NCBI GenBank assembly: GCA_024349765.1
Contig: AP026073.1
Coordinates: 3,782,001 to 3,846,000 of the forward strand
From: Streptomyces nigrescens
Lineage (GTDB): Bacteria; Actinomycetota; Actinomycetes; Streptomycetales; Streptomycetaceae
Direction: 5' to 3'
Length of the DNA stretch: 64,000 nt
The position numbers were made by a program, and so were the translations under genes. Shown here one piece after another: positions 32,179-56,482 of this stretch. How positions within the stretch are numbered: the stretch's first letter is position 1; every line of letters begins with the position of its first letter. The notes under the pieces are model-generated. The model saw only the letters and a list, made by a program, of their open reading frames with translations, was not told where the DNA came from and searched no databases.

Positions 32179-32295
32179 GGGGGGCTCCAGCGGGGAGTCG
32201 AGGATCCGGGTGGATTCCGTCCGGTGAGCCGGGGGACCCGAGTGCGTGCGAGCGGCGGGAGCAGCACGGCCAAGAGATCCGCTCCGCAGCCGACC

Positions 32296-32460
32296 TCAGC
32301 TCTGTGCGAAGCCGATGCGGTTGGCTTCACCACGGGTTCCCGTGCTGTGAGGGCTGATGAACACGCTCATGTCCTGAGTGTCCGTCATCTTCGGCGGGGT
32401 GGCCGTGTCCACTTCGGCCCAGGTGCGTTCGTCGGTGGACTAGGCGGTGACGGCGGATCC
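32296..32460 (-). pseudogene. C-terminal fragment of a secreted hydrolase-like protein
   Basis: The frame ending with TGA at 32296 reads STDERTWAEVDTATPPKM, then TQDMSVFISPHSTGTRGEAN, which looks like the last strands of a jelly-roll domain attached to actinobacterial glycosidases. An in-frame TAG lies at 32440-32442 and no start is found. Bases 32490-32575 upstream are strikingly AT-rich for this genome. The remaining 32576-32769 has no gene. Confidence 0.5.
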
Positions 32461-32769
32461 GATATCTGATGCGGTGCGCGGGTAAGCGAACCAAAAACAA
32501 CATAAACAGTCAATGCCCGTGGGTAATCAAAACGCTGATTCGGCCAGGTCGCACACGTTGAAACAATTCTCAACCTCTGTGCTGCGGCGCCGGGTTCAGC
32601 CGCACCGTGCCGAAGGCGAGAGCACCGAACGCCACCACGAGACGCCCGGAGCCCATGGAGCCCACGAGGTCCTCGACCCGCCCCACGCCGGTGACCGGAG
32701 CCCATGCGGTGCTCCGTCCTCCGGGTGAAGCGGGTCCGAGGTGACCGGATTGCCCTTGGGCGGCGTCGG

Positions 32770-34674
32770 TCAGAGCTTGCGGCACAGCAGGGCGTCCGGG
32801 GTCCCGCCCTTGGCCCACGCGTGGGTGAAGGCGATTCCAGCCGCGAACTCGTCGGTTCGGCACTGGCCCTTATAGGTGCCCTGCGCGAACTCCCCGCCCG
32901 GGCCCCCGGCCGGGCGGTCGTCGCCTCGGTCGAACCAGACCGTACGGCCGTCCGTGCTGAGTGCCCTGCTCGACTCGGCGCACAGTACGCCCGAGACCGC
33001 CTGGCCGCGCACGCTGTAGCCGATCATGAACTGGCCGACCCCGCACTGGTACTTGGTGTAGCCACCCGCCCAGTCGCCCTGCTGGACATGGCGTTCGTCG
33101 TGCACGACGCTCAGCACCGGGTCGGTCCCGGCGAGCCCGGCGGCTCCGGCGTCGGTGCACAGGCCACGCCCGTCGCGGTGTGCCAGGCCGATGAGGCGCT
33201 GCCCGTCGGGGCAGACCCCCTTGCGTGCTCCCGGGTCCCAGTCCCCTCGCGTCCGTACCCGCGCCGACTGGACCGCGTCGGTGTGGTCGAGGTTCAGCAT
33301 GTCCCAGGCGTCGGAGACGGCGATCTGCCCCGTCTTCTGCGGCGCGGCCACCAGACGCTTCCAGTCGGCCGCGCGCCAGTCACCGCCGTCCAGGATGCCG
33401 GAACGCCGTCCGGCGGTGTCGAAGTCGATCATTGACCAGGTGCCGTGGCCGGCCCATCCGACCAGGGGCCAGAAGGCGAAGTCGGTGTCCTGGTCGATCA
33501 GATAGTCCACGAAATTGCCGAACCAGGCTCGCGCCTGCGGCTTCGTCTCATCCCTGCCGATGCCGAACTCGCTGATCCACAGAGGCGCGGTGTAGTGGCG
33601 TCCGGCCTCGGTGACGTAGAACGCCTGGCGCCGCAGGGTCGCGAACAGATCCTCGCGGGAGAGTTCCTGGTAGCGCGGATCGTGGGTCTCGCCCATTCCG
33701 GTCGCGCCCGTGTGGTTCGGTCCGGTGTAGCCGTAGAAATGCGCCGAGTACACCAGCTTGTTCGAGGCGACGAGAGTGTGCGACAGAGTGCGTACCGGTT
33801 CGAGCGTCGGCCGCCAGTGGAACAGCCCGTCCGCCGGGATCCCTTGCCAGTTGATGCCCTCGACGACCACCAGCAGATCGGGATTGGCCTCCGTGAGCAG
33901 ACGGTCGCCGAGGTGCTGGGAGGCGGCCCACCAGTCGTGGCTGTCGCCCCAGTTCCAGTTGGCGTCGTCCGTGACGGTCCGGCGGACCTCGTTGTAGAGG
34001 TCGGCTCCGACGACGCGCTTGTTGTCCTTGTAGCGGCGGGCGAGCGAGATCCAGTCGTCCTCCCACTGAGTGGTGGACTGACTGGTGTTCCACCGTTCGT
34101 TGCCGTCCAGACCGCAGCAGAAACGCGACGTGTTGGTGTGGTTGTTGAGCACCACCGCGAAGCCTTCCGAGGTGGTGGCGGCGACCACCGCGTCGAGGAC
34201 CTGGAGCGGGGTCTTGCCGCGCAGTTGCGGGTTGGCGGCGACCGATGAGTCCGGGACCGGGCGCTTGTCGTGCAGCATCTCGTTCGAGAACGGCAGCCGG
34301 ATGCTGTTGATGCCGAGTTCGTGGAATCCGGCGAGGATCTTCGGTATCGGAGCGCGGTCCAGGCCGAGCGGCATCTGGTCGGACTTCTCGCCGTCGTGGT
34401 GGTTCGCCGGGTCGGTGATGTCTCCGGATCCGTTCCAGGAGCCCTGGGCACCCTGCCAGTTGGCCGACTTGAGCTTGAAGCGATTGCCGTCAGCGTCGAC
34501 GATGTAGCGGCCCCGGGTGCTGAGCGGCGGACGCCACGAATCGATGAGGGCTTTCGGCTCGCCGACCGCCGGGGGTGCGGGGTGCGGGGCCGTCGACGCG
34601 GCTGCTCCGGGCGCGCCGAGCGCTCCGAGTAACAGCGCCCCGACGAGCATCGCCGGCAGCAGGGGTCTTCTCAT
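32770..34674 (-). CDS. Secreted GH5-family glycoside hydrolase with C-terminal domain
   Basis: 634 residues. Signal peptide 1-27. The catalytic domain (about 45-440) is GH5/cellulase-like: IRLPFSNEM, VVLNNHTNTS, acid/base Glu229 in LYNEV, HFYGYTG, nucleophile Glu369 in WISEFGIG, and FAFWPLVGWAG. The last 190 residues (from about 445) form a separate domain with four or more Cys (GVCPDGQRLIG, GLCTDAG, QCGVGQFMIGY, GQCRTDEFAAG) that repeats a C-x-x-x-F/Q-x-x-G theme and might bind carbohydrate. GGAGGGA precedes ATG 34674. It sits next to the nucleoside cluster but belongs to a separate unit. Confidence 0.92.
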   Translation of the reverse strand: MRRPLLPAMLVGALLLGALGAPGAAASTAPHPAPPAVGEPKALIDSWRPPLSTRGRYIVDADGNRFKLKSANWQGAQGSWNGSGDITDPANHHDGEKSDQMPLGLDRAPIPKILAGFHELGINSIRLPFSNEMLHDKRPVPDSSVAANPQLRGKTPLQVLDAVVAATTSEGFAVVLNNHTNTSRFCCGLDGNERWNTSQSTTQWEDDWISLARRYKDNKRVVGADLYNEVRRTVTDDANWNWGDSHDWWAASQHLGDRLLTEANPDLLVVVEGINWQGIPADGLFHWRPTLEPVRTLSHTLVASNKLVYSAHFYGYTGPNHTGATGMGETHDPRYQELSREDLFATLRRQAFYVTEAGRHYTAPLWISEFGIGRDETKPQARAWFGNFVDYLIDQDTDFAFWPLVGWAGHGTWSMIDFDTAGRRSGILDGGDWRAADWKRLVAAPQKTGQIAVSDAWDMLNLDHTDAVQSARVRTRGDWDPGARKGVCPDGQRLIGLAHRDGRGLCTDAGAAGLAGTDPVLSVVHDERHVQQGDWAGGYTKYQCGVGQFMIGYSVRGQAVSGVLCAESSRALSTDGRTVWFDRGDDRPAGGPGGEFAQGTYKGQCRTDEFAAGIAFTHAWAKGGTPDALLCRKL

Positions 34675-34880
34675 AGGGTCCCTCCGAGGTTCGTGGGCCG
34701 GAGCGCGGGCACGGACTCGCCGAACGCCGCGGGACTGAGGAGCACGGATCGGTCTTGGACATGGGGCATCCGCCCATGGTTTCCGTACCGCGTGAAGTCC
34801 GCCAGCCCTTGAGGGCCGTGGATCAGCCGCCACACAGAGTGATTCAACAGTGCTTCCCCGTCTCCGACACCGGCTCGGAC

Positions 34881-34937
34881 ACGGGCACGGTCGAGGACGG
34901 CCGGCTGCGGATCGTTCCCGCAACCGGCCGTGCCCGT
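34881..34937 (-). terminator. Large hairpin at the end of the nucleoside operon
   Basis: ACGGGCACGG (34881-34890) and CCGTGCCCGT (34928-34937) are perfect inverted copies; inner CGGCCGG/CCGGCCG can also pair. It lies 10-65 nt beyond the stop of the last cluster gene. Confidence 0.7.
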
Positions 34938-34947
34938 CAGAAGCACA

Positions 34948-35472
34948 TCAGGCGGCTGTTCGCAGCCGTTCCACCGCTCGGCGGATGGCCGCGTCGACCT
35001 CCGGCAGCGCGGCGGCGATGTCCGTGCAGCGGACGTATTCGACGGTCGCGACCGCGCGCAGGCCCCGCACGAGGAACCCGTACTCCTCGTCCTTGCCCTC
35101 TTCCAGCAGCAGGACTATCGGTTTGCCGAACGCGCTGGCCCAGCCCATTTCGATGTGGGTGCCGGGTGACGGTGGGATGCCGGGAATCGCGACGAACACA
35201 TCCGCCTTCTCGATCTCCTTCTGGTCGAGCGCCGTGCACTCGTCCGGCGGCATCACCTCCGCGCCCCAGGCTTCCCGGCGGTGGGCGTTGTAGACGTGCA
35301 GGCCCTGTCGCTCGAAGTGCTCGATCAGCACCGCGAACGGCAGACAGTCGCGGTCCGACATCCGGCCGGACTCGGAGTCGACGAGCCCCATGAAGGGCCC
35401 GCCGAGGAACACACTCGACACGTCGTAGCAGGCGGAGTCGGGGGTGCCGCCGCGAGGAGCAGTTGTTGTCAT
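34948..35472 (-). CDS. CMP N-glycosidase candidate (nucleoside 2-deoxyribosyltransferase family; BlsM/MilB-like)
   Basis: 174 residues. The NDT-family fold shows as VFLGGPFMG near the N-terminus, ALDQKEIEKADVFVAIPG, then GTHIEMGWASAFGKPIVLL, where the Glu of HIEMG is the family's active-site residue. In blasticidin S and mildiomycin pathways the relatives BlsM and MilB hydrolyse (hydroxymethyl-)CMP to free the base; that is what I infer here. AGGAGG precedes ATG 35472. It is the last gene of the minus-strand operon, 89 bp after the methyltransferase, before a strong hairpin. Assignment rests on family plus context. Confidence 0.85.
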   Translation of the reverse strand: MTTTAPRGGTPDSACYDVSSVFLGGPFMGLVDSESGRMSDRDCLPFAVLIEHFERQGLHVYNAHRREAWGAEVMPPDECTALDQKEIEKADVFVAIPGIPPSPGTHIEMGWASAFGKPIVLLLEEGKDEEYGFLVRGLRAVATVEYVRCTDIAAALPEVDAAIRRAVERLRTAA

Positions 35473-35560
35473 GGCATGACCTCCTGGAGGGAGCGGGACG
35501 AGAGGGACAGGAGCGGTGAACTGCGGTCGGGGAGTGGTGCGGCGTTCCGGCGCCGGGCCC

Positions 35561-36226
35561 TCAGTCCTTGAAGAAGCACTGGATGTAGGCGTTGCCGGTC
35601 GTGCCGTAGGCGTACTCGGTGGTGTCGTACGCCTGGTAGGTGTGCCGCTCGACATGGATCCTGCGGAAGTGGTCGACGTACTGCCAGCGCAGCTCCGGCC
35701 TGGTGCTGAAGAAGGGGATGAACACGCCCCCGGGGCGCAGTACCCGTACCACCTCGGTCATGGACGCGGACCACAGATCGGCGTCCTTCCAGACATCCAT
35801 GTCCAGGGCCGGATCGAAGAACATGCCGTCGATGCTCTCGGAGGGAAGTTCCCGGATCCGCTGGAAGAAGTCCCCTCGCTCGATGGAGAGCGTGGGCGGC
35901 AGCTCGGGGTGCCTGGCCCGGAACAACTCCTCGACCTCGTCGAAGACTTCGAGGACGGTGTGGCTGCGGGTCGCCGGGTTGGCGGCGATCCGCAGCGCGG
36001 AGAGGCCGAGTCCCAGGCCGACCTCGTAGAAGTCCTTACCGTGTTGGCACAGCAGATCGGCGCTGGCCCACATCAGGTCGCGCTCCCATGCCTGCATGGC
36101 CTGTTCGCCGCCGATGCTCAGCGTGACCTCGCCGTCGGTCTCGATCAGCTCGATCTCGGGGGTCTTCGCTCCTTCTGCGGCCGTTCGCTCGTCGTTGTCC
36201 TTGCCGGGGTGCAGGGAACTGGTCAT
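35561..36226 (-). CDS. SAM-dependent methyltransferase (guanidino N-methyltransferase candidate, BlsL-like)
   Basis: 221 residues. A class I methyltransferase: motif I FYEVGLGLGLSALRI, acidic VLEVFDEVEELF, then IDGMFFDPALD and LRPGGVFIPFF. The layout resembles guanidinoacetate methyltransferases. In blasticidin S assembly BlsL methylates the guanidino group of beta-arginine, a good fit with the aminomutase in this operon, but the acceptor is inferred. The start at 36226 is used because AGGAAGG lies 6 nt ahead; ATG 36232 is too close. Confidence 0.85.
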   Translation of the reverse strand: MTSSLHPGKDNDERTAAEGAKTPEIELIETDGEVTLSIGGEQAMQAWERDLMWASADLLCQHGKDFYEVGLGLGLSALRIAANPATRSHTVLEVFDEVEELFRARHPELPPTLSIERGDFFQRIRELPSESIDGMFFDPALDMDVWKDADLWSASMTEVVRVLRPGGVFIPFFSTRPELRWQYVDHFRRIHVERHTYQAYDTTEYAYGTTGNAYIQCFFKD

Positions 36227-36262
36227 GGTCATCCTTCCTGGGGGGAGCGGGGCGGAGGGGGG

Positions 36263-38134
36263 TCAGCCCCGACGGGGTACTACTCCGAAGTGCCGTCTGG
36301 CGGTGGACACCGCGAGGTCCTGGACCGCGAAAACGGTGAAGTAGTAAGCCTGCGGAGGGGTGTTGTCGGCGACGTGCACGCGGAAGGACACGTCCTGGGC
36401 GTGCCTGCCGGAACCCCTGACCTTGGTGGTGGACGGCTCCACGAGGGTGTCCTCGCGCATATAGGCGGGCACGAACAGCCCCAGACGCACCGGCCCCGGC
36501 CGGGCGGCGGTCAGGCGTGCCCGGATCTCCAGGACCCCGCCCACCGGCACCTCGTCCGGTGCGTACGCCAGCAGCTGCGGCGCGTCCGGTACCTGGAAGG
36601 TGACGTCACCACAGCGCAGACACACCACGCAGACGGTGTCCAGGACGTGGGGCAGCAGCCCTCGGCGGATGAATCGCTGGGCCGGGCGGCCGCAGTGGCA
36701 GATCACTTCCTCGACGTGCGGGTCCAGCCGGCTGCGGTCGCCGAAGTGGGCGGGGTAGTTCATCACCTCGGTTTCGGGGTTCTTGCCGATCTCCTGGGCC
36801 AGCACGTGGTCGAGTGACTGAAGGTCCGCCGTGAGCGAGGTGTGGAGCTCCTCGGGGGACTGCTCGGCCAGGTGCGTGGGCCGTGCCACCCACTGGTCCA
36901 CCTTGCGGGCGAGTTTGGCCAGCCGGGGCCGCAAGGGGTTGTTGTGGGGCAGCAGTTCACCGGTGAGGAGCGCGGTGAGGCGGGTGCCGACGGTCAGGAG
37001 AAGGTCGTCGGGGCTGTGGTCGGACGGTTCGGGTACCGCGTCGGCGGGACCGGCAGGCAGTCCGAACCGCATGAAGGCGGGGTAGGGGTGCGATCCCGCC
37101 AGGCTCGCGTTGAGCACGTCCACCGAATCCGCGTCGGCGGTCGCCGCGCGCATCCAGGCGGCGTTCTCCGGCCGGTCCGAGTCGTGCACGGAGACGGCCG
37201 ACACGACGGTACGGGCCGGGCCGTCGAGCGCATTGAGGAGGATCTGGTAGCGGGGGTCGTAGAGGACGAGGTCGGCGAGCGGTCCGCTGTTGCAGGCGCT
37301 GAGGACCACTTCGGCCGCCGCGACCCGGTTCAGCGGGACGAGTTTGTCCTCGGGCTTGTAGCAGGCAAAGCCATAGGCGCAGCGCGGGCCGAGGAGTTCC
37401 TCGTGGCGCGGGACCACCGGGTTGAGTCCGCAGATGGTGAACTCGCCCAGGTTGATGCTGTCGTCCTTGCCGTGCCCCTGGAAGACGACCTTCCGCCAGC
37501 GTTTGCCAAGGATCTCGGCCTGGATGTCGATGCGTTCGAAGTCACGGTCGTCATAGACCCGGACGGTGTCGTGGGGCGTCGGCCGGTCGGTGTCGGTGAA
37601 CAGTCCGAGCTCGTCCAGGGATTCGTACGGCCGGGCGTACTGCTTGGCCACGTTCCACAGGAGTGAGCGGGAGTCGCGACCGCTGAGGAACGTCACCCGG
37701 AATCCCTGGGTCCGATAGGTGCTGTTCAGCAGCTCTCTGACCGGATCGAGGCGGAGGCGGTCGTAGGTGCTCAGCACGAGCAGGGTCCCGTGCCCCTCCT
37801 GGCGCAGCCGGTCGAGGGAGTCCGCGGTCAGCCAGGTCCTGGCCAGTGGCCGGGCCAACTCTGCCAGTCCGGCGGGCAGTTCGTCGGGATCGTCGAGCAG
37901 CACGCCGTGATCCAACGGTGTGGGCAGTGTCGTGCCGGAATACAGCGTGGCGGCCAGCTCGACGCTGTCGGCCAGGTCGGGGCGGCCCTCCACGACCACC
38001 GGAATGCCGCCCTCCAGGGGGCTGCCCAGGAAATCCTTGACCGCCGCGGGGAGCTCCTCGTGGGCGACCGGGCGGAACGGAGCCTGGGGCCGTCGAGGGG
38101 GCCCGGCGTGCCCTTGCGAGTGGGTGGACTGCAT
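36263..38134 (-). CDS. CHAT-like (caspase-fold) protein with zinc ribbon and C-terminal beta domain
   Basis: 623 residues, no signal peptide. After a 190-residue N-terminal part comes a caspase-like core: strand plus catalytic His221 in VVFQGHGKDDSINLG and Cys281 in EVVLSACNSG, the His/Cys dyad arrangement of CHAT and related clan CD peptidases, followed by TVVSAVSVHDSD. Residues about 479-508 form a four- to five-Cys zinc ribbon (CHCGRP ... CVVCLRCG). The last 110 residues look like an Ig-like beta sandwich. Its place inside a nucleoside-antibiotic operon (37 bp before the methyltransferase, 79 bp after the MFS gene) is unexpected. It could process a protein, act in self-protection, or be a non-catalytic scaffold; none can be chosen from sequence. 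Confidence 0.8.
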   Translation of the reverse strand: MQSTHSQGHAGPPRRPQAPFRPVAHEELPAAVKDFLGSPLEGGIPVVVEGRPDLADSVELAATLYSGTTLPTPLDHGVLLDDPDELPAGLAELARPLARTWLTADSLDRLRQEGHGTLLVLSTYDRLRLDPVRELLNSTYRTQGFRVTFLSGRDSRSLLWNVAKQYARPYESLDELGLFTDTDRPTPHDTVRVYDDRDFERIDIQAEILGKRWRKVVFQGHGKDDSINLGEFTICGLNPVVPRHEELLGPRCAYGFACYKPEDKLVPLNRVAAAEVVLSACNSGPLADLVLYDPRYQILLNALDGPARTVVSAVSVHDSDRPENAAWMRAATADADSVDVLNASLAGSHPYPAFMRFGLPAGPADAVPEPSDHSPDDLLLTVGTRLTALLTGELLPHNNPLRPRLAKLARKVDQWVARPTHLAEQSPEELHTSLTADLQSLDHVLAQEIGKNPETEVMNYPAHFGDRSRLDPHVEEVICHCGRPAQRFIRRGLLPHVLDTVCVVCLRCGDVTFQVPDAPQLLAYAPDEVPVGGVLEIRARLTAARPGPVRLGLFVPAYMREDTLVEPSTTKVRGSGRHAQDVSFRVHVADNTPPQAYYFTVFAVQDLAVSTARRHFGVVPRRG

Positions 38135-38212
38135 GAGATGACCTCGTGTTCCTTCTTCAGTGCTGTGCCCGGAGCGGTCGTTGCGCGGGCCGTGGGATAC
38201 GCGGAGAGCGGG

Positions 38213-39481
38213 TCAGGCCGGAGCAGTTGCCTGCCTGGGCGCACCGGCGAACAGCCCGCGGAAGGCGAACGCCCCGGCCGAGGCGGCGAGCGACACGCCA
38301 ACCGCGACCGCGAACACCCCGCGCGCCGCCAGCGGTTCGACCAACAGGCCGCCGATCTGCTGACCCAGGGCGTCACCGATGACCGTGGCCAAGGATGCCC
38401 AGGTGAACGCCTCCGCCGCCTTGTCGCTGTCGGCCAGCCTGCTCACCAAGGACATCTCACTGGCCGACACGAGTGCGATCGGGACGCTTCCCACGGCCAG
38501 GGTCACGGCGAGTGTGACCTCGGAGACGGCCAGCAGCGGCAGCGCGGTCCCGCCCGCGTAGGCGAGCAGAAGCCAGGGGAAGCGACGGTGCACCGGCCGC
38601 TCCGACTGGGATCGCCCCAGCAGGAGGGCACCTACGGCGCTGCCGACGCCCCAGCAGGCGTACACCACCCCGGTGTGTCCGGGAGAGCCCTGCTCGTCGA
38701 CGAAGGCCGGAATGGCCAGTGTCATCAGCCCGATCGGGACGGAGGCGGCGGCCATCACCAGGAGGAGGGCCGGCATGCCGCTGTTGCGGATCGGCCCCAG
38801 GACACCGCGTGCGCCCTGGTTCCCGGTGTTCTCCGGCGGGGTACCGTCCTCCGCCGTGCCCGGCGAGGTTGCGCTGTCGTCGGCTGTCCGGGGCCGCAGC
38901 AGCCGTGCCGTCCCCAGGCCCACGGCTCCGACGCCGCCCACGACCGCCACCGCGGTGAGCGCCGTACTCGCCGATCCGGTGACCATCAGCACGGCGAATA
39001 TCAACGGTGCGCCCGTGATGAGCAGTTCGGCGAGCAGTGCCTCCCACAGGTAGGCCGTCTCCCGCTCCTCCTCCGCCAGCGGGATCCGGGCCCACAGGGA
39101 GCGCATGCACGCATTGCCCGGAGGCAGGGCGACACCCGCCATCAGTGCCAGAACGAGCTGCCCGGGTGTGGCCGGTTCCGTCCACCACACCAGCGCGGTG
39201 AGCGCCGACGGATACACCAGACCCGTGAGCAGCAGTGCGTCGCGCGGGTTGGTGCGGTCCATCCGGCGGGCGACGAACGGACCGCCCACCGCCATGCCCA
39301 CGGCGTAGAGCGCCGAGACCAGCCCCGCCTGGGGGTAGCTGCCGCCCTGCTCCCGCACCACCAGCACCAGGGCCAGCGACATGAGGTAGACGGGTAACCG
39401 GCATACCACGCTCCAGCCGGCGGCCCCGGCCACGTACGGCTGTTGGAGAAGGCGAAGGAACTGCCTGACCGTAGCGACCAT
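38213..39481 (-). CDS. MFS transporter (probable antibiotic exporter)
   Basis: 422 residues with about 12 hydrophobic helices; RRMDRTNPRDAL after helix 2 fits the MFS loop. Cluster-linked MFS proteins in nucleoside pathways usually export the product and give self-resistance, which is the inferred role. No deaminase, acetyltransferase or other resistance enzyme is found in the operon, so this may be the main protection. It lies between the ATP-grasp ligase and the CHAT-like gene. Confidence 0.88.
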   Translation of the reverse strand: MVATVRQFLRLLQQPYVAGAAGWSVVCRLPVYLMSLALVLVVREQGGSYPQAGLVSALYAVGMAVGGPFVARRMDRTNPRDALLLTGLVYPSALTALVWWTEPATPGQLVLALMAGVALPPGNACMRSLWARIPLAEEERETAYLWEALLAELLITGAPLIFAVLMVTGSASTALTAVAVVGGVGAVGLGTARLLRPRTADDSATSPGTAEDGTPPENTGNQGARGVLGPIRNSGMPALLLVMAAASVPIGLMTLAIPAFVDEQGSPGHTGVVYACWGVGSAVGALLLGRSQSERPVHRRFPWLLLAYAGGTALPLLAVSEVTLAVTLAVGSVPIALVSASEMSLVSRLADSDKAAEAFTWASLATVIGDALGQQIGGLLVEPLAARGVFAVAVGVSLAASAGAFAFRGLFAGAPRQATAPA

Positions 39482-39550
39482 CGAACCTGGCTCTCCGTTC
39501 TTTCCTGTGCTTGCCCTGCGCTCGGGTGTGCTGCCGTGCCGTGGACAGGG

Positions 39551-40783
39551 TCACGGAGAGGCCGTCGAGGGCTCGGGCACCGCTGCGATGTCGATGCGGA
39601 AGTGCTCCAGTACGTTCCGCATACGTTCCTCGACCTCCGCCACCGTGGCGCCTTCGACGTGCACGAATCCGGACGCGTTGTGCGAGGCGCGTCGGGCCGT
39701 GACCCGGTCTCCGGGCGCCATCCGTACGACGGCTTTGATGACCCCCGGCATGCGCAGCAGTTCCTCGGGCGAGGTGATCGCGAGCACCCGGCCGGAGTCC
39801 GGCAGCGGCAGCAGCAGATCGCCCACGCACCGCCGGACGCCGTAGTCCAGCCGGGGCCGGCGGCCGGTGTAGACATCGAGCGTGGCGCCGAAGACGTCGA
39901 AGCCGTAGGCGTGTCCATGGTTCGCGGTGATCTCGCAGCCCGCCAGCCGGACACCGACCTCGCCCGCGTAGACGGCGTCGTCGGTCTCGAAGAACTCCAT
40001 GTGCAGATAGCCGTGGTCGATGTCCATCCCGGTCACCACCTGCCGCACCAGGCCGGCCACGTCACAGCGCGGTCCCGGCCCCGAGCCGACGCTGATGTTG
40101 GCGTTCATCGCGCCCTCGACGATGTCCAGCGGCCGGCAGGGCATGGCGCTCGGCCAGACGTCCAGCACCTCGCCCCGGTGGATCAGGGCGCATGCCTCCC
40201 ACTCCGTGCCGCCCAGATGCTCCTCCACCATGAAGTGGCGCGCGGCGAGGTCCACCTGCCGCAGATCCGCGGGTCCGCGCAGCAGATAGGTGTCGAGGCA
40301 GGCGAAGGAGTCGACCGGCTTGAGGACGACCGGCCAGCCGTGTTCCGCGGCGAAGTCCGTGACGTCCTCGGCGACGGAGACCCTCCGGTACGCGGCCGTA
40401 CGCAGGCCCAGTGCGCGGAACTTGTCCTTCATCGCCGCTTTGTCCCGCACCCACCGCACCTGCTCGGTCGTCAGATGCGGCAGTCCCACCAGGCCCGCGA
40501 AGCGCTGGGCGATGTGCTGACGGGGCTCGGAGGGGTTGCAGAAGTGCACCGGCCGCACCGGCTGTCGCGCGATCCAGTCGCGGTAGCGGCGCGCCTCCTC
40601 GGTGAGCGGCACATCGCTGCGGACCCAGAACGCGGGCAGCTGAGCCGTGTCACGCAGATGCCCTGCCGGCAGGTCGTCGCGCGCCTCCTCGAAACGCAGC
40701 AGGACCAACTCCTCGGCCCGGTGCCGCACCGCGTACCTGGTGAACGAGTTGGGCCTGTCGTCCACCAGCAGCAAGCCGCTCAC
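39551..40783 (-). CDS. ATP-grasp ligase (amide-bond forming candidate, BlsI-like)
   Basis: 410 residues from GTG 40783, which overlaps the stop of the aminotransferase gene (GTGA). ATP-grasp hallmarks: WVRDKAAMKDKFRALG, WPVVLKPVDSFACLD (ATP Lys), MVEEHLGGTEWEACAL, and GYLHMEFFE ... EVGVRLAGCEI for Mg and carboxylate. The family couples a carboxylate to an amine with ATP. Here it should join the beta-amino acid to the aminosugar nucleoside. The tail (last 110 residues) has a beta domain like those of BacD/carboxylate-amine ligases. Confidence 0.88.
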   Translation of the reverse strand: MSGLLLVDDRPNSFTRYAVRHRAEELVLLRFEEARDDLPAGHLRDTAQLPAFWVRSDVPLTEEARRYRDWIARQPVRPVHFCNPSEPRQHIAQRFAGLVGLPHLTTEQVRWVRDKAAMKDKFRALGLRTAAYRRVSVAEDVTDFAAEHGWPVVLKPVDSFACLDTYLLRGPADLRQVDLAARHFMVEEHLGGTEWEACALIHRGEVLDVWPSAMPCRPLDIVEGAMNANISVGSGPGPRCDVAGLVRQVVTGMDIDHGYLHMEFFETDDAVYAGEVGVRLAGCEITANHGHAYGFDVFGATLDVYTGRRPRLDYGVRRCVGDLLLPLPDSGRVLAITSPEELLRMPGVIKAVVRMAPGDRVTARRASHNASGFVHVEGATVAEVEERMRNVLEHFRIDIAAVPEPSTASP

Positions 40784-41958
40784 ATCGTCTCCAGGGTCCG
40801 GCGCAGCAGCTTGGCCGCCGTGGCCTGCTCCTGCTCGCTCAGCTCCGGAGACAGCGGAACGCACAGGGTGCGGTCCAGGAGGGAGCGGGTGCGGGCGAAG
40901 CCATCGCGGGTGAGGGCGCGGGGCACGCTGTCGGCGAGGTTCCAGGGGAAGCCGTCCGCGTACAGCGAGCGCCGCCCCACGAGGACCGGGTGCTCGGGCA
41001 GGAAGTACTTGCCGAGCGTCCAGTTGGCGATGCCCTGCTCGGTGAGCCGGTCGACCGCGGTGTCGCGTAGTTCCCGGCTCGCGAGGCGCAGCCGCAGACT
41101 GATTTTGACATCGCCGGGCGACCGCGGAACCAGCTCGATGCCGGGCCGGTCGGGCACCTCCTGCGACGCGATCCGGTAGTGCCGCTCCAGGCCCGCGAGG
41201 ACCTCGTCGAGGTGGCGGAACTGCTGGAGCTGGATGGCGGCGACCTCTTCGCTGGTGACCAGGTTCTCGCCGTAGTAGGCGTCCTCGTGCCAGGTGGGGT
41301 AGCGGCCGGGCTTACGGGCCGAGCCGTGATCGTGGTAGCAGCGCATCTCCTCCCACGCCGCCCGGTCGTTGGTGACCAGCAGCCCGCCCTCGCCGGAGGT
41401 GAGGACCTTGTTGTGGTGGAAGCTGAAGGCGCCCGCGTACCCGCGGGTGCCGACGCGGCCGCCGTCCGGGAAGGACGCTCCCAGCGCCTGGGCGGCGTCC
41501 TCGATGACGAAGGGCACCGTGGTCGGCAGAGGTGCGACGGCGCCCTCCATGTGGGCGACGATCACCCGGCGCGCGTCGGAGGGCAGCAGCGAGGTGTCCA
41601 GGGCCAGCGTCTCGTCGACGTCGACCGGCACCGGGACCAGTCCCGTGGACAGCACGGCCCCGGCCACCGCGACGAAGGTGACCGCGGGGATGTACACGAC
41701 GTCACCCACTGTCGGCCGGGTGGAGACCAGGGCGAGGCGCAGCGCCTCGGTGCAGTTGTGGACCGCGAGCACGTGCTCGGCGCCCAGCCGCTCACCCACC
41801 GTGCGCTCCAGCCGGCTCGCCATGCTCTCCGACTCGGTCTGATAGCGGAACAGCACGCTCTGCTCGATGACCTGCCGCAACTCGTGCATGTCGGACCAGT
41901 TGAGGTAGTTGGCGCCGTAGGGCAGAAAACGCTGGCCCAGTCGTTTCTGGAGGGTCAT
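40780..41958 (-). CDS. DegT/DnrJ/EryC1/StrS PLP-dependent aminotransferase (BlsH-like)
   Basis: 392 residues. PLP-binding Lys184 in FSFHHNKVLTSGEGG, VIEDAAQALG (Asp contacts the pyridine ring), HNCTEALRLAL phosphate loop. The family aminates or dehydrates keto-sugars. In the blasticidin route a homologous enzyme modifies the decarboxylated pentopyranose at C-3/C-4; I infer that here. It overlaps both neighbours by 4 bp, so translation of aminomutase, aminotransferase and ligase is coupled. Confidence 0.92.
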   Translation of the reverse strand: MTLQKRLGQRFLPYGANYLNWSDMHELRQVIEQSVLFRYQTESESMASRLERTVGERLGAEHVLAVHNCTEALRLALVSTRPTVGDVVYIPAVTFVAVAGAVLSTGLVPVPVDVDETLALDTSLLPSDARRVIVAHMEGAVAPLPTTVPFVIEDAAQALGASFPDGGRVGTRGYAGAFSFHHNKVLTSGEGGLLVTNDRAAWEEMRCYHDHGSARKPGRYPTWHEDAYYGENLVTSEEVAAIQLQQFRHLDEVLAGLERHYRIASQEVPDRPGIELVPRSPGDVKISLRLRLASRELRDTAVDRLTEQGIANWTLGKYFLPEHPVLVGRRSLYADGFPWNLADSVPRALTRDGFARTRSLLDRTLCVPLSPELSEQEQATAAKLLRRTLETM

Positions 41959-43139
41959 CGGCCGCCGTCCCCGTTGTCCGCCGACGGCTCCGTGACCGGA
42001 TACACGTCCTGGTCCACGACCATTTCCTGGCCCTTGTAGTTACGCAGCAGCAGGCCTGCGGGAACCTGCTCGTAGGCGGGCCTGGCCATGGGGATCTTGC
42101 CGAGCCGGGTGGTGAGCACGTACTGCGGCACGCCGAAGCCGGTGATGTACCCCTGCAGGCCGTCCATGATCTCCCAGCCCTTCTCGACGGAGGTCATGAA
42201 GTGCGCGACGCCGGTCACGTTGTCGCAGTGGTAGAGGTAGTACGGGCGTACGCGAATGCGCAGAAGCTCCGTCATGAGCTTGCGCATGGTGTGCACCTCG
42301 TCGTTGACGCCGCGCAGCAGCACTGTCTGGTTGCCCACCGGGATCCCGTGGCGCAGCAGCAGGTCGACGGCCCGCTCGGACTCCGGGGTGATTTCCTTGG
42401 GGTGGTTGAAATGGGTGTTCAGCCACACCGGGTGGTAGCGGGCGAGCATCTCGCACAGCTCCGTGGTGATGCGCTGCGGCAGCAGCACCGGGAACCGGCT
42501 GCCGATGCGGATGATCTCCACGCTCGGTATCGCGCGCAGGCCGGAGATGATCTCTTCCAGCTTGCCGTCCCGGTAGGAGAGCGGGTCGCCGCCGGTCAGC
42601 AGTACATCGCGGATCTCGGGGTGGTCGGCGATGTACTGGAGATCTTCGGTGAAGTCCTCGCCCTCGTTCTTCTCGAAGTAGGTTCCGTCCACGTCGGTGG
42701 TGTGGAACTTGCGCGTGCAGTGCCGGCAGTAGACCGGGCATGCCTCGGTGATGAGCATGATCACCCGGTCCGGGTACTTGTGCACCACGCGGTTGGTCTT
42801 CCGGAAGAACATGTCGCCCACCGGATCGACGTCCGTACCGTGGAACTCCATCAGCTCACCGAGCGACGGCACCGCCTGCTGCCGGACCGGGCACTCCGGA
42901 TCGTCGGGATCCATCAGCGAGGCGTAGTAAGGCGTCAGTGACCAGCGGTACTTGCCGGCCGATTCGGCGATCGCCTTCTCCTCGGCGGGAGTCGTGCGGA
43001 TCCACTGCTGTGCCTTCTCGACGGTGTTGATGCGCTTGCGCATATGCCACCGCCAGTCGTTCCACTGGTCCTCGGGGAAGTCGGCGGCAGTGGTGAGGGG
43101 AAGGGGGGCGGGTTGGGGCTCTGAGGGTATGGCGGGCAT
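41955..43139 (-). CDS. KamA family radical SAM 2,3-aminomutase (arginine or lysine; BlsG-like)
   Basis: 394 residues. Radical SAM cluster CxxxCxxC at Cys134, Cys138, Cys141 (CPVYCRHC); GGDP loop; PLP Lys347 in LGKIPM, in place of GGGGK of lysine 2,3-aminomutase. Of the two Asp that grip the side chain of lysine in that enzyme, the first appears kept (Asp305, HCDNVTG) and the second is Thr. It should turn an alpha-amino acid into its beta-isomer; with the methyltransferase next to it, arginine to beta-arginine is the best guess. ATGA overlap with the aminotransferase. Confidence 0.92.
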   Translation of the reverse strand: MPAIPSEPQPAPLPLTTAADFPEDQWNDWRWHMRKRINTVEKAQQWIRTTPAEEKAIAESAGKYRWSLTPYYASLMDPDDPECPVRQQAVPSLGELMEFHGTDVDPVGDMFFRKTNRVVHKYPDRVIMLITEACPVYCRHCTRKFHTTDVDGTYFEKNEGEDFTEDLQYIADHPEIRDVLLTGGDPLSYRDGKLEEIISGLRAIPSVEIIRIGSRFPVLLPQRITTELCEMLARYHPVWLNTHFNHPKEITPESERAVDLLLRHGIPVGNQTVLLRGVNDEVHTMRKLMTELLRIRVRPYYLYHCDNVTGVAHFMTSVEKGWEIMDGLQGYITGFGVPQYVLTTRLGKIPMARPAYEQVPAGLLLRNYKGQEMVVDQDVYPVTEPSADNGDGGR

Positions 43140-43199
43140 CAGACATCTCCCATCTGGCGGAAAACCGGGGTCGTGTCGATAGGGGAAGCGCTTGTTACG

Positions 43200-44114
43200 T
43201 CAGAACACCGTGGGTACGAGGGCGAGTTGGCGGATGCGACGGGCAATGCGCTGTGCTTCGCGCCGCGCGTCGTCATCGCCCCCCAGGGACGACCAGGGGC
43301 CCGGGTGCGGAGTCCACACGGCGGGTCGCCGGGCGTCCTCCGCCACCTCGATCGGCACCAGCCGTCGCAGCCGGTCGGCCAGATCGCGCTGGTCCGGGCC
43401 GAGCGGCGGCAACAGGGTCAGGGGGGCGTTGCGGGCCCATGCCAGCGATACGGCGGTCAGTGTCGGGGAGGCGAGGAACGTCTCCGCGGCGGCGTGCAGT
43501 GCGTCGAAATCCACGTCTGCGGCCCGGTGCACGCGAACGCCGGCGACCGGGCCGAGTGCCTTCCGTACGGCCGTGAACCCGGTGTCGCACACCACGTCGC
43601 AATGGCCGGCGCGGCGCACCGCCTCCGCTGCGGCCGGCCGCAGGAAGGTGTCGGTGAAATCGGCACGTTCCGCGTCGTCGGCCCCATACGCCGAGACGAG
43701 CATCAGGCACCCGGAACGCGAGCGGTTGCGCGTCAGCCGACGGGGTGCCAACAACTGCACGGGAGCCAGGGGGCCCTGACCCGCCGGCGGCGCCTCCGAG
43801 AGCCAATCGGGTCGTTGCACAAGGCGGGTGACGGCGGACACGGCCGGAATCTCCGTCGCCCGGTGGCGGCAGTGCAGATACACCACCGGTACGCCTTGTT
43901 CGGAGAGCCGCGCCGCGGCCTCCGGCGCGTCACAGACGAGCGCCACGTCAGGAGTGGACGGGGCCGTCGGGTACGACACGTCCAGTTCCGTCAGATGGCC
44001 GGCGATGCGGCGCCGTGCGGTCGATGCGTCGAGCAGTCGCGGCTCGTCCACCAGCAGGACATGCCCCCGGGCCGGGGTGCCCGGGTCCTCGGTACACCGG
44101 TTCAGTACTGCCAT
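43200..44114 (-). CDS. Conserved cluster protein of unknown function (BlsF-position; CGA-synthase-related)
   Basis: 304 residues, no membrane segment, few motifs. It alternates Ala/Leu-rich strands and helices (GHVLLVDEP; DVALVCDAPEAAARL; GCLMLVSAYGADD; DVVCDTGFTAVRKALG; LTAVSLAWARNAPLTLLPPLG), suggestive of a two-lobed GT-B-like fold, though shorter than real glycosyltransferases. Its start overlaps the end of the radical SAM gene by about 13 bp, so it is coupled to it. I recall a protein at this place in related clusters described only as related to cytosylglucuronate synthase; it may assist that enzyme. Function not known. Confidence 0.75.
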   Translation of the reverse strand: MAVLNRCTEDPGTPARGHVLLVDEPRLLDASTARRRIAGHLTELDVSYPTAPSTPDVALVCDAPEAAARLSEQGVPVVYLHCRHRATEIPAVSAVTRLVQRPDWLSEAPPAGQGPLAPVQLLAPRRLTRNRSRSGCLMLVSAYGADDAERADFTDTFLRPAAAEAVRRAGHCDVVCDTGFTAVRKALGPVAGVRVHRAADVDFDALHAAAETFLASPTLTAVSLAWARNAPLTLLPPLGPDQRDLADRLRRLVPIEVAEDARRPAVWTPHPGPWSSLGGDDDARREAQRIARRIRQLALVPTVF

Positions 44115-45118
44115 GGCGGTACGCTCCCCAGCCGGGCCACATCGTCGCTGTACCCGGCGGCTGTGGTGGAACAGCCGTTGCAGATCCGTGGTCCCTGCTC
44201 ACGGAAGAAGTCCACCTGGGACCGGAAGGCCGGTGTGTCGAGCCGGATCACCCCGTCCTGACGCCAGGACGCGCCGTTGGGGTCCGAACTTTCGCGGTGC
44301 GGCAGGCAACTGCACGCATAGGCCCGCTCGTACTTGCCGTCCAGGTAGATCACGTCGTCCACGACATGGCACAGCGGCTCGCTCGCCCGGGGTGTGGTCG
44401 AGTCGGTGAAGTAGCGGTCCTGCTCCTCGGGCGTGTCGCCGTAGAAGCGCTTGCCGAGCGGGACCAGGTGGGTGTGCGGGTCGGCCTCGTAGACCGGATC
44501 GCAGACGGACCGTACATGCTCCGGGTCCGGGTAGCGGATGCTGCGGTCCAGCTTGATGGCGGACAGCTCCCACTGGCGCACGCCCGCTTCCGTGAGGGTC
44601 TTCTGGAGCTGCGGCATCTCGGTGTAGTTGTGCGGTCCCACCACGGTGTTCACCCGCGGGAGCACCCCGAGTTCGGCCGCTCTGCGCAGGCCGGTCAGCC
44701 CGTTGTCGAACATGCCGGGGGAGCGGCGGTAGACATCGTGTGTCTTCGCCGAGCCGCCGTCGAGACTCACGATGACCTGGGCGAGCCCCGCGTCGGCGAG
44801 CTCCTCGATGCGCCGGGGCAGCATCATCCCGTTGGTGATGAGTGACATCCGCATCCCGGCGCCGGCGCCCCGGCGCACCAACTCGGCGACGTCCGGGTGC
44901 ATCAGCGGTTCGCCGCCGGTGAACCGGACGTAGCCCACTCCTGCCTCGGCTGCCCGCGGCAGCAACTCGTCGAAGTCGTCCAGCGGGAACCGGTAGGTGT
45001 CGCGGGACAGCGCGAACTCACACATGAAGCAGTCGGCGTTGCAGGCTTCGAGGATGCGGATGAACAGATACTTCTGACGTGCGCTCGTGCGGGGCCCCGC
45101 ACCTGTCGGTCCAGCCAT
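44102..45118 (-). CDS. Radical SAM enzyme, cytosylglucuronate decarboxylase candidate (BlsE/MilG-like)
   Basis: 338 residues. CxxxCxxC at Cys26, Cys30, Cys33 (CNADCFMC), TGGEP at the SAM site, VSLDGGSAKTHD, and extra Cys in the C-terminal part (PLCHVVDD, YACSCLP, RICNGCS) that could hold a second cluster as in SPASM-like enzymes. In blasticidin S and mildiomycin pathways the equivalents decarboxylate (hydroxymethyl-)cytosylglucuronic acid; I infer the same. GAAAGG sits well for ATG 45118, so I do not use the GTG at 45151. It is 45 bp after the glycosyltransferase. Confidence 0.9.
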   Translation of the reverse strand: MAGPTGAGPRTSARQKYLFIRILEACNADCFMCEFALSRDTYRFPLDDFDELLPRAAEAGVGYVRFTGGEPLMHPDVAELVRRGAGAGMRMSLITNGMMLPRRIEELADAGLAQVIVSLDGGSAKTHDVYRRSPGMFDNGLTGLRRAAELGVLPRVNTVVGPHNYTEMPQLQKTLTEAGVRQWELSAIKLDRSIRYPDPEHVRSVCDPVYEADPHTHLVPLGKRFYGDTPEEQDRYFTDSTTPRASEPLCHVVDDVIYLDGKYERAYACSCLPHRESSDPNGASWRQDGVIRLDTPAFRSQVDFFREQGPRICNGCSTTAAGYSDDVARLGSVPPWQY

Positions 45119-45163
45119 GCGCAAGCCTTTCTGTGACGAGTAGTTGGGCACTGCGGGTGGTGA

Positions 45164-46423
45164 TCAGCCGGAGACCGCACCAGATGTCGGCAGCGCGAGC
45201 GCCAGCACATGGCCGGCGACCTGGCGGGCTCCGCCTCCGCCGACGCCGCGAGCCAGGCCCGACCAGTCGGCGCCGGCCTGTGCCCGCTCCAGGGCCGCCA
45301 GCACCCCGGCCCCTACCGCGGTCTCCGCTCGGTCCGGGCTCTTGGCCGCGGCGGAGATACCGCCGTAGATCAGGCGCAGCACCGCCTCCTCGGAGGCGGT
45401 GCGGTCCCGCAGCACCGTCTCCTCGGAGAAGACGTCGTCCGGCCAGCGGACCCTGGTGTCGGCCCCGACGGCTCTGCTGTGGAAGCGGCCGTTGAAGATC
45501 TGGCTCAGGTTCTGGGGCGGCAGACACACCACCGGTGTGGACCGTGCGCCCGCCTCCAGGAGTGTGGTGAGACCGGGCGAGGCGAGCAGCACGTCCGCTT
45601 CCGACACATGGCGGAGGAATTCCGCGTGGGGCAGTGGCCCGTAGGTGACCTTCATGGACGCCCCGTCCATCGGATGCGATGCACGCACCGACTCCCAGGG
45701 AAATTCCCGCGGAAGATTGCCGGCCACATGGACCGCGCTGAATCCTGCCCTTTCCAGAGCGTTCAGCGTCGCGGGAAGGACGACGCGTGGATAGCTGGTC
45801 CAGTCCGTGAGCGTCGGAGACCGCAGTCCGCCGAAGCTGACCAGTGCCCGCTGAAAAGGGGCTGCGGTGGGCGACGAATTGCTGGTTTCCGCGCCCTGCG
45901 TTCCGGTGTTCTCCAGGACGACGGCTTCCACCCATTGCAGATTGCTGACGGCGGCGAGGAGGTCCCGGCTGTGCGGCTCCAGTTCGATGCAGCGCTGAGC
46001 GCAGTAGACGGAGGCATCGAGCGGAAGCGAGGGGAGATCGCTTCGAGTCCACAGGAACGGCAGGCTGTCCACGAACACCGTCGGGACGCCGACCGCTTCC
46101 AGCGACGAGGCCGCCGGACCCTCCAGGACCACGAGACCGGCGGCAACATTCTCGTGGCGCGCGACCTCCGCGACGGCCTCGCGGTCGTCGGTTGCCACGT
46201 CGTACCACTGGTCGACCCCGTGTGCGGCGAGCAAGGTACGGCTGAGCCGGGAAGCAAGCCCGATGAAACGCAGGGGCACGGGCGCGGATCGACGGAGCTC
46301 GGCCATCACCGCACACAGTTTTCCGGTGCTTCCCCACCCGAATTCGGCCCCGGCGACGGCGATCGTCAGTCCTGAATTCGATGGTCCGCCGGGAGAATTC
46401 TCCGCTGTGAATACATCGGTCAT
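45164..46423 (-). CDS. Cytosylglucuronate synthase-like glycosyltransferase (BlsD/MilC-like)
   Basis: 419 residues. N-terminal LTIAVAGAEFGWGSTGKLCAV forms a Gly-rich loop, and the C-terminal domain has ADVLLASPGLTTLLEAGARSTPVVCLPPQ, a GT-B nucleotide-sugar site (cf. PGxTT...P). The reaction expected is cytosine plus UDP-glucuronic acid to cytosylglucuronic acid. ATG 46423 follows GAGGAGA. It is the first biosynthetic gene of the operon, downstream of the heptamer array at 46505-46544. Assignment is from resemblance to the BlsD/MilC group and from context. Confidence 0.85.
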   Translation of the reverse strand: MTDVFTAENSPGGPSNSGLTIAVAGAEFGWGSTGKLCAVMAELRRSAPVPLRFIGLASRLSRTLLAAHGVDQWYDVATDDREAVAEVARHENVAAGLVVLEGPAASSLEAVGVPTVFVDSLPFLWTRSDLPSLPLDASVYCAQRCIELEPHSRDLLAAVSNLQWVEAVVLENTGTQGAETSNSSPTAAPFQRALVSFGGLRSPTLTDWTSYPRVVLPATLNALERAGFSAVHVAGNLPREFPWESVRASHPMDGASMKVTYGPLPHAEFLRHVSEADVLLASPGLTTLLEAGARSTPVVCLPPQNLSQIFNGRFHSRAVGADTRVRWPDDVFSEETVLRDRTASEEAVLRLIYGGISAAAKSPDRAETAVGAGVLAALERAQAGADWSGLARGVGGGGARQVAGHVLALALPTSGAVSG

Positions 46424-46504
46424 GGGTCTCCTCAGGTGGGGTCCGTCGCGGCGGAGATCCGGGACGGGACTGAAGATCTTGACGAGCACAACTCATCACG
46501 CGAA

Positions 46505-46544
46505 CCTGGCAACTGCCTGGCAGGCACCTGATACCGGCCTGATG
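46505..46544. promoter_or_regulatory. Four heptamers at 11-bp period (OmpR/SARP-type operator)
   Basis: CCTGGCA (46505), CCTGGCA (46516), CCTGATA (46527) and CCTGATG (46538) start exactly 11 bp apart, about 80-120 bp upstream of the glycosyltransferase start. Such helically phased heptamers are the classic binding sites of OmpR-fold activators. The OmpR-type regulator encoded directly upstream is the natural partner. Confidence 0.75.
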
Positions 46545-46579
46545 TGATGCAGGTCACACGGTGGGGCGGCTGTCGCGCT

Positions 46580-47326
46580 CTACTGGCTCCCGACCCCATC
46601 CACGGGGCCGAGCCAGTAGCCGAATCCCTTACGGGTGTGGATCAAGGGGGGAGCCTCCCGGTCGACCTTGCGCCGGAGGCGGGAGATGAGCGACTCGATG
46701 GTGTTGTCGGTGCGGGCCCGTTCCTCACCCCACACATGCCGACTGATCTGCTCCTTGGACAGGACCTGCCCCGGGTGGACCAAGAGGCAGCGCAGCAGCC
46801 GGTACTCCGAGGGTGACAGGCCGAGCTCTCGCGGTCCGCGCCACACCTGGCACGTTGCGTCGTTCAGGACGAGGTCGCCCATGATGAGGTCGGAATGGTG
46901 CGGCGCGTGTTCCGGCCGTCCGGCATCCCGGTCGTGCAGCAACACCCGTGTTCTCGCCACGATTTCCGGCACGCGCAGCGGTTTGAGGACGTAGTCGGCG
47001 GTGCCGAGACTGAGCCGTGGGCGCAGGCTGTCCAATGACGTGGGCTCGGTCAGGAACAGCACCGGGGCGCTGCCATCGGCCAGGCACCGATATCCCGCCA
47101 GGCCGTGCGCGTCGGGCATCAGGGTGTCGAGGATCACCAGGTCGAACGGCTGGGCGGCCAGCAGCGCCAGCGCCCCGGCTCTGGTGCTGGCCCGGATGGC
47201 CTGATACCCCGCCAGCTGCAGACTCTCCAACACCACTTCGCATGTTGCCGCCGGGGCGAGGACGATTAAGACCGCTTGCCGATCGCCACTGACCGGAGAG
47301 CACTTCTCATGGGAAGTCAGGTGCAT
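46580..47326 (-). CDS. Atypical OmpR-type response regulator, cluster-situated activator candidate
   Basis: 248 residues from ATG 47326 (AAGGA ahead); starts at 47386 or 47404 are possible. Receiver domain keeps Asp67 (VILDTLMPD) and Lys115 (YVLKPLR), but the acidic pair after strand 1 is replaced: VLIVLAPAA instead of VLxVDDD. The C-terminal winged helix is standard (GLSPSEYRLLRCLLVHPGQV, RTDNTIESLISRLRRKVD, TRKGFGYWL). No kinase is adjacent. Loss of the Mg-binding acids suggests control without phosphorylation, as in ligand-sensing atypical regulators of antibiotic clusters. Probably binds the phased heptamers. Confidence 0.9.
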   Translation of the reverse strand: MHLTSHEKCSPVSGDRQAVLIVLAPAATCEVVLESLQLAGYQAIRASTRAGALALLAAQPFDLVILDTLMPDAHGLAGYRCLADGSAPVLFLTEPTSLDSLRPRLSLGTADYVLKPLRVPEIVARTRVLLHDRDAGRPEHAPHHSDLIMGDLVLNDATCQVWRGPRELGLSPSEYRLLRCLLVHPGQVLSKEQISRHVWGEERARTDNTIESLISRLRRKVDREAPPLIHTRKGFGYWLGPVDGVGSQ

Positions 47327-47904
47327 GGAGTTCTGTTCCTTCTGCGTGGGCTCGTCATTGGGGGGTTCGTGAGCCGTGTGGCTCATCGGCCTGTTTCTCT
47401 CCATGGGTGATGCTGTTGTGGTTGACGCGCGGGTAGCGACGCCGGCGCAGGATGCGCGCGTCGCTGACCAGGGTCAGAACATCGGTAATTCCACGACGAT
47501 CGCCGGTGCCGTGTGCAGGCGGTGCCCACGACGGCGACGGGGTGCTGGTCCGCGGGAGATGCGGGGGATGGGGGGTGGGGGATATGGGGGACGTGGTGCT
47601 GGGTGGGTCGGGAAACTGATTGCGTGGCGCGCTCCCGTACCTGTGCCCGGCCTCGGCCGTGGAGGAAGCCCGGGGCGTCGGTCTCGGTTCGGAGGTGCAC
47701 CGCCGGCCGTTGAAGCGGGCGAGCCAAGGTGGTTGGGCTCGGTGAGCTCTCGACGAAGGTGAGCGTGGCCGCCTCGCCCGCCATGCCGGCATCAGGGCTC
47801 TGAGCGCCTCACCGAGCACATCTCAAGGGCTGGTCGAAGGTCGTCGGCTGATGAAACGGTGTCCAGGGCGGGTGGAGGGACGGAACCCGATCGGCGAAGC
47901 CCGA
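47327..47904. other. Right border of the nucleoside cluster, no gene seen
   Basis: About 500 bp with overlapping frames lacking coding bias and G-rich runs around 47560-47600. It should contain the promoter of the OmpR-type regulator. Confidence 0.4.
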
Positions 47905-55317: not shown

Positions 55318-55368
55318 CACCTTCAAGGAAAACCTCTTGTGCGTGCCGCCGTCCGATGTTGAGGTGGC

Positions 55369-56334: not shown

Positions 56335-56482
56335 GCCGAAGCAGCCCGAGGTGCGGGCCGGCGGTGTGCGCCAGGTCCGGCTGCGATCACGTCTTGGTTG
56401 GTCGATTGGCTCGTGAGTGGCAGTGATCACAGCCGATGTGTTCGCTTCCAGACCGAGCTCATCGAGACGGCGAGGGTAGCGA

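Follow-up and report, generated by a model that had tools for sequence, protein, structure and literature searches.

Described blasticidin-type clusters and the Streptomyces nigrescens locus

The closest described relatives of the locus reported here are the gene clusters for blasticidin S (bls), arginomycin and mildiomycin (mil). Blasticidin S and arginomycin have a cytosylglucuronate (CGA) core in common, and the homologues from which we take the roles of BlsD and BlsE are described in the same source (PMC3715490). The methyltransferase BlsL is reported to carry an ExGxGxGx motif and to need an acylated (leucylated) substrate (PMC5572114), and leucylblasticidin S is described as being matured by PepN, a standalone peptidase encoded outside the cluster (PMC4664946). 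We analysed a stretch of 64,000 nucleotides from Streptomyces nigrescens (the window; GenBank assembly GCA_024349765.1, contig AP026073.1, positions 3,782,001 to 3,846,000 of the forward strand, in a genome of 9.33 Mb), in which eleven minus-strand genes form a coding block at window positions 34948-47404. A first-pass annotation, made from the letters alone, had read these genes as a blasticidin S-like cluster running in one direction; all eleven exist with open frames, and equivalog matches together with ten-gene collinearity with a bls reference locus bear the reading out. The predicted proteins strongly support the block as a complete and intact bls-type cluster of a Streptomyces, whose expected product would be leucylblasticidin S, trimmed to blasticidin S (estimated probability about 0.85). 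It is a further member of the known blasticidin type, a sound but expected find, and very likely adds a blasticidin-type producer.

Relatives were sought with the BlsE family TIGR04466 in 392 genomes of the genus. At E ≤ 0.001 the family matches all 392, the radical SAM part being common, and only the 13 genomes over the cut-off, the window genome included, were counted; up to 20 kb around BlsE were taken from each of the other 12. The M protein of one of these loci (L032, genome G388) is identical to PDB entry 5vto, ‘Blasticidin M’, over 158 of 158 aligned residues, and since we take the source of the 5vto protein to be S. griseochromogenes, we infer that L032 is the bls locus of that species. 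All ten genes D to M are present there in the order and on the strand of the window, which is the co-linear homology that the first-pass annotation had proposed to look for, with protein identities of 63, 82, 48, 85, 82, 73, 64, 75, 85 and 68% from D to M (i.e., 48-85%). At the DNA level the match covers 34967-46366 and nothing outside it; the eleventh gene, an OmpR-type regulator, is excluded and stands directly upstream in the window but not in L032. Gene letters come from papers or records for D, E, L and M and from the annotation of an arginomycin-type locus for F, and G, H, I and J were assigned by gene order. Four equivalog cut-offs are exceeded, M matches 5vto, and homology with a sister genome (G064) forms a bounded block, so the cluster is not a chance assembly.

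All ten genes occur in eight of the 12 same-genus loci (L032, L034, L036 and L039-L043). The L033 piece stops short of M and of the end of L; on L035, a contig of 6 kb, D and E alone are present, and L037 and L038 represent another type, in which the gene order differs and neither G nor L has a match. In a BlsE locus scan, from which the best 80 loci were listed and 26 examined (a set overlapping the 12 genus loci), D to L stand in order in 16 of the 26, from Streptomyces, Kitasatospora and Embleya. M was found in 13 of these 16, as a short piece in L050; L045 has all ten genes. The other members of the 26 are two short contigs and eight loci of other types, including those of Paractinoplanes, Plantactinospora, a Catenulispora metagenome-assembled genome (MAG) and a Lysobacterales MAG. 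This comparative set, with its genes in fixed order in three genera, outlines the core of the pathway. In a BlsE tree of 30 rows the window groups with L041 (support 100/99) and then with L032 (98/95), and L165 lies elsewhere; 14 of the 27 inner branches of this tree are unresolved and several are long, and only the window group was used. Among published genomes, S. olivoreticuli has a ‘Blasticidin S’ region listed at 32% (PMC12472026). The Lysobacterales MAG (L065), which is proteobacterial, carries a BlsE-like gene at 49%, with distant DegT-like and CGA-synthase-like neighbours at 30%.

The arginomycin-type locus (L165; NZ_CP107895.1, a 396 kb linear plasmid of Streptomyces sp. NBC_00467) appears to be an arginomycin-like cluster, a label taken from its beta-methylarginine genes, a 2-ketoarginine methyltransferase and a beta-methylarginine aminotransferase that are both over their NCBIfam cut-offs. 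It has in common with the window annotated CGA synthase, BlsE, BlsF, DegT and ATP-grasp genes, an MFS gene and a BlsK-like gene (49%), and differs in its beta-methylarginine genes and its gene order, neither of which was found in the window. The mil cluster was compared by its published description, sequence comparison being confined to the cytidine monophosphate (CMP) hydrolases of the PDB. According to that description it matches the window in a CMP hydrolase, a CGA synthase, a CGA decarboxylase, a DegT enzyme, a putative tRNA-dependent aminoacyltransferase and an atypical orphan regulator, and it is set apart by genes for a CMP hydroxymethylase and a putative arginine oxidase, by a product that contains serine and by the LuxR-type regulator MilO (PMC11784345).

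Predicted biosynthetic genes and route to the product

Cytosine would be freed from CMP by gene M (34948-35472; all cluster genes are on the minus strand), a protein of 174 aa assigned by family to the BlsM-type CMP hydrolases (5vto, E 1.6e-71), whose start was set at ATG 35472, inside a longer mechanical open reading frame, with a GGAGG ending 7 bases upstream. Cytosine and UDP-glucuronic acid would be joined to CGA by gene D (45164-46489), a BlsD-type CGA synthase (TIGR04467, 426 bits with a cut-off of 300), and gene E (44102-45151), a BlsE-type radical SAM CGA decarboxylase (TIGR04466, 638.6 bits, cut-off 400) with the motifs CxxxCxxC (CNADCFMC) and GGEP, would convert CGA to cytosylarabinopyranose. 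The glycosyltransferase, radical SAM and NDT-like genes, which the first-pass annotation had tied to BlsD, BlsE and BlsM, were thus found in just these families. Gene F (43200-44114) encodes a BlsF-type CGA synthase-related protein (TIGR04469, 262 bits, cut-off 150). Gene H (40780-41958), a BlsH-type DegT/StrS enzyme of the pyridoxal phosphate-dependent kind (Pfam DegT, 168 bits), probably turns cytosylarabinopyranose into an amino dideoxy sugar together with partners.

The arginine side chain would be prepared by gene G (41955-43139), a BlsG-type arginine 2,3-aminomutase of the radical SAM KamA family (TIGR04468, 650.5 bits, cut-off 600; motif CPVYCRHC) that stays under the cut-offs of the Lys and Glu aminomutases and by family assignment would make beta-arginine from arginine. 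Gene I (39551-40783), with its start set at GTG 40783 inside a longer mechanical frame, is a putative BlsI-type ATP-grasp-like ligase; it has an L-amino-acid-ligase C-terminal domain (LAL_C2, E 6e-14) and weak matches to ATP-grasp enzymes, in agreement with this role, and may ligate beta-arginine to the aminonucleoside to give demethylblasticidin S. Gene K would transfer leucine from leucyl-tRNA onto the beta-amine, masking toxicity and licensing gene L (35561-36232), a predicted BlsL-type guanidine N-methyltransferase (methyltransferase family, ExGxGxGx motif EVGLGLGL) whose methylation of the guanidine would yield leucylblasticidin S. K and L lie side by side, which fits the need of BlsL for an acylated substrate. 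Export of leucylblasticidin S may fall to gene J (38213-39481), a BlsJ-type MFS exporter (MFS_1, 74.7 bits), and the OmpR-type regulator with its incomplete receiver probably turns the block on.

Chromosomal PepN would finally remove the leucine to give blasticidin S, and three PepN genes of the window genome exceed the TIGR02412 cut-off, with a distance of about 6 kb between two of these. The first-pass annotation had counted an unseen processing peptidase as a doubt, one that fades with PepN described as standalone and outside the cluster and with three such genes in the genome. It had also suspected a different product from the lack of a deaminase or acetyltransferase; these are described as resistance genes reported in non-producers (PMC4664946), so their absence is no hint of another product. 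A change of product deduced from missing resistance and peptidase genes was rejected on these two grounds.

The gene at the BlsK position

Gene K (36263-38134, 623 aa) was left unnamed in the first-pass annotation, which had reported the leucyl-transfer gene as not seen. It is the counterpart of the gene at the BlsK position of the S. griseochromogenes locus, between the MFS and methyltransferase genes (75% over the full length), and on this homology it is very probably the leucyl-transfer gene, a BlsK-type tRNA-dependent leucyltransferase. BlsK itself is reportedly, going by the title of a PNAS paper of 2021, a [3Fe-4S], tRNA-dependent aminoacyltransferase. Gene K matched nothing in Pfam or NCBIfam at E 0.001 and nothing in PDB or PHROGs at E 1. 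Among 11 K members, Peptidase_S41_N was hit in two (best E 0.09) and one PADLOC family in one (E 0.022), and a comparison of K with PDB sequences gave six matches at E 0.71-1.9; all of these are at chance level. CHAT-like motifs had suggested a new gene in the place of BlsK, an idea that was rejected, as K has a counterpart in L032 and stands in order in 16 of the 26 loci examined. The cluster is ordinary as a kind; its clearest lead is BlsK.

Regulator, boundaries and age of the block

The OmpR-type transcriptional regulator (46580-47404) combines a receiver (Response_reg, 44.8 bits) with a winged helix (Trans_reg_C, 79.9 bits). Its Response_reg alignment starts only at profile position 9, and VLAPAA/VLGPAA stands where the usual receiver consensus would have the acidic pair, in the window as in the sister genome, although both proteins retain the Asp, Thr and Lys positions. 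The protein appears, then, to be an OmpR-type regulator without the acidic pair of its receiver. A homologue was found in one of the 12 same-genus relative loci (L041, 79%), and the 26 loci examined hold a single distant match (L053, 30%). One TTA codon each is present in the regulator (codon 46) and in the exporter gene J (codon 29). The mildiomycin regulator MilO is described as an atypical orphan response regulator (PMC11784345), and by analogy our guess is that the window regulator might answer a small molecule and not phosphorylation.

No internal stop is present in any of the 11 cluster genes. Neighbouring genes overlap by 4 bp at G/H and H/I and by 13 bp at E/F, and the remaining seven gaps are of 12-90 bp, so that of the several 4-bp overlaps claimed at first pass two are of that length. 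The range given there (34881-47404) is right at its right edge, and its left edge lies 67 bases past the last stop, in the region of a hairpin (34860-34947, minus strand; minimum free energy -49.8 kcal/mol, z -3.69, 0 of 200 shuffles) that we regard as a candidate transcription end 3' of the last gene. The hairpin is unlisted by our terminator scan, which requires a T-run. Consensus scans returned no promoters and four terminator-like sites, with 3.2 expected; none of the four is on the minus strand. The GC profile is flat (67-71%).

DNA homology with the sister genome covers 34898-47554 at 93-94%. Beyond this block, the comparison, which took in 40 kb of the sister genome, gave a match at 55342-56375 only (inverted, 91%; matches of at least 150 bp at E ≤ 1e-10). 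The cluster genes are 90.7-96.7% identical in DNA between the two genomes, within the range of part of rpoB (96.6%), gyrB (95.2%) and a gyrB-family paralogue (91.8%), and the block therefore seems to date back to the divergence of the two genomes, by a small yardstick of three genes. Recent horizontal transfer between them was rejected because the cluster identity is in this housekeeping-type range, though the compared flanks differ.

Two features outside the conserved block may be mentioned. The matching segment at 55342-56375 carries an APH-family phosphotransferase gene. On the strand of the cluster and 3' of it, two glycoside hydrolase genes lie at 30481-34923, an alpha-galactosidase with a ricin-type lectin domain and a member of the GH5 cellulase family.

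Alternative explanations

Several points weigh against a complete blasticidin S pathway. The assignment of K draws on position, homology and the title of a paper; the F, D and J proteins are only 48-64% identical to those of L032; the species of L032 is inferred from M; and the regulator is absent from L032, so that expression may differ. The alternative that survives best, itself unlikely, is a blasticidin congener with a different beta-amine, in which K transfers another amino acid or trimming does not take place. The substrate choice of K is not readable from its sequence, and MilH, a putative tRNA-dependent aminoacyltransferase, belongs to the serine-carrying mildiomycin (PMC11784345); set against this, K is identical to the L032 protein at 75% of positions over its full length, and the three PepN genes speak for trimming.

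A silent or decayed cluster is quite improbable. The upstream regulator that the S. griseochromogenes locus lacks would be compatible with it, but all 11 frames are open and the cluster genes have been kept in the sister genome at an identity as deep as that of rpoB, gyrB and the gyrB-family paralogue.

It is very unlikely that the product is arginomycin or some other relative derived from CGA in which the arginine side chain is altered. The common CGA core (PMC3715490) and the genes shared with L165, its K homologue included, would be in favour of such a product. Homologues of the L165-type 2-ketoarginine methyltransferase and beta-methylarginine aminotransferase at E ≤ 1e-8 were nevertheless found in only one of 41 sequences, L165 itself and not the window, and genome-wide none was over the cut-off of TIGR04543 (the beta-methylarginine aminotransferase was not sought genome-wide). 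That no 2-ketoarginine methyltransferase was found argues against arginomycin, as does the grouping of the window BlsE with the S. griseochromogenes locus and away from L165.

The view that gene K encodes a CHAT/caspase-type protease, which processes or protects, can hardly be upheld: its motifs QGHG and LSACNSG do resemble the CHAT His and Cys motifs, and a local profile score of 29.5 with 23 CHAT domains exceeds those of 60 column-permuted controls (at most 27.3) and of 18 control comparisons (13.0-21.0), but the test was picked after the motif had been seen, the HHalign probability is 5-8% in local mode, 6.6% at the score of 29.5, and 0.1% in global mode, the His-Cys spacing is 60 against 40-48 in 16 of the 23 CHAT domains (one has 102 and six have no motif match), the histidine (His221) is Asn in four of eight distant relatives, none of 11 K members matches a CHAT family, and position and homology point to BlsK.

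BlsK relatives beyond blasticidin clusters

Relatives of K were sought with a profile of 14 members, which detected K-like proteins in 24 of the 392 genus genomes, some only as fragments or weak matches. Eight full-length K-like proteins come from genomes in which no BlsE passes the cut-off. In four of the eight (L205, L209, L210 and L211) the K-like gene, at 39-41% to the window K, adjoins an MFS gene and an ATP-grasp gene that is 47-49% identical to gene I; three of these loci also hold TauD and nonribosomal peptide synthetase (NRPS) adenylation genes, and the remaining one is a contig of 6.5 kb. These gene sets possibly represent another use of tRNA-dependent capping. L164 likewise has a BlsK-like gene in such a setting; judged by length and identity, L205 and L164 are the same plasmid. 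In L206, L207 and L208 the BlsK-like genes (46-47%) lie near a DegT gene, and the neighbours in L206 also include LysW-type carrier, aminoadipate-kinase-like, transketolase and APS-kinase genes. A phylum-wide search of 396 sampled genomes found K in the window genome only, yet Paractinoplanes (L060) also carries a homologue of K.

Since these relatives lie beside NRPS/ATP-grasp and LysW-type carrier genes where the genome has no BlsE above the cut-off, tRNA-dependent capping may be a reusable step of self-protection. Cysteines 235, 252, 258, 281, 479, 505 and 508 of K are kept in all nine sequences (the window and eight distant relatives), and Cys502 is lost in all eight of the latter; this alignment of distant members already shortens the list of possible Fe-S ligands. 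We tentatively propose, with more doubt than confidence, that BlsK could belong, as one branch, to a larger family of Fe-S acyltransferases that depend on aminoacyl-tRNA and cap amines in several unrelated actinomycete antibiotic pathways, with a CHAT/caspase-like ancestry, Cys 235, 252 and 258 as the [3Fe-4S] ligands and four cysteines near 479-508 as a second site. The CHAT likeness of K is kept here solely as a possible fold ancestry.

In Streptomyces sp. uw30 (L038/L064, genome G063), a diverged CGA-type cluster has next to it a K-like fragment (E 6.5e-35) that is interrupted by two in-frame stops. On a plasmid of Bombilactobacillus folatiphilus (L163:6101-7543; source Tetragonula carbonaria), several short frames appear to be BlsK-like remnants.

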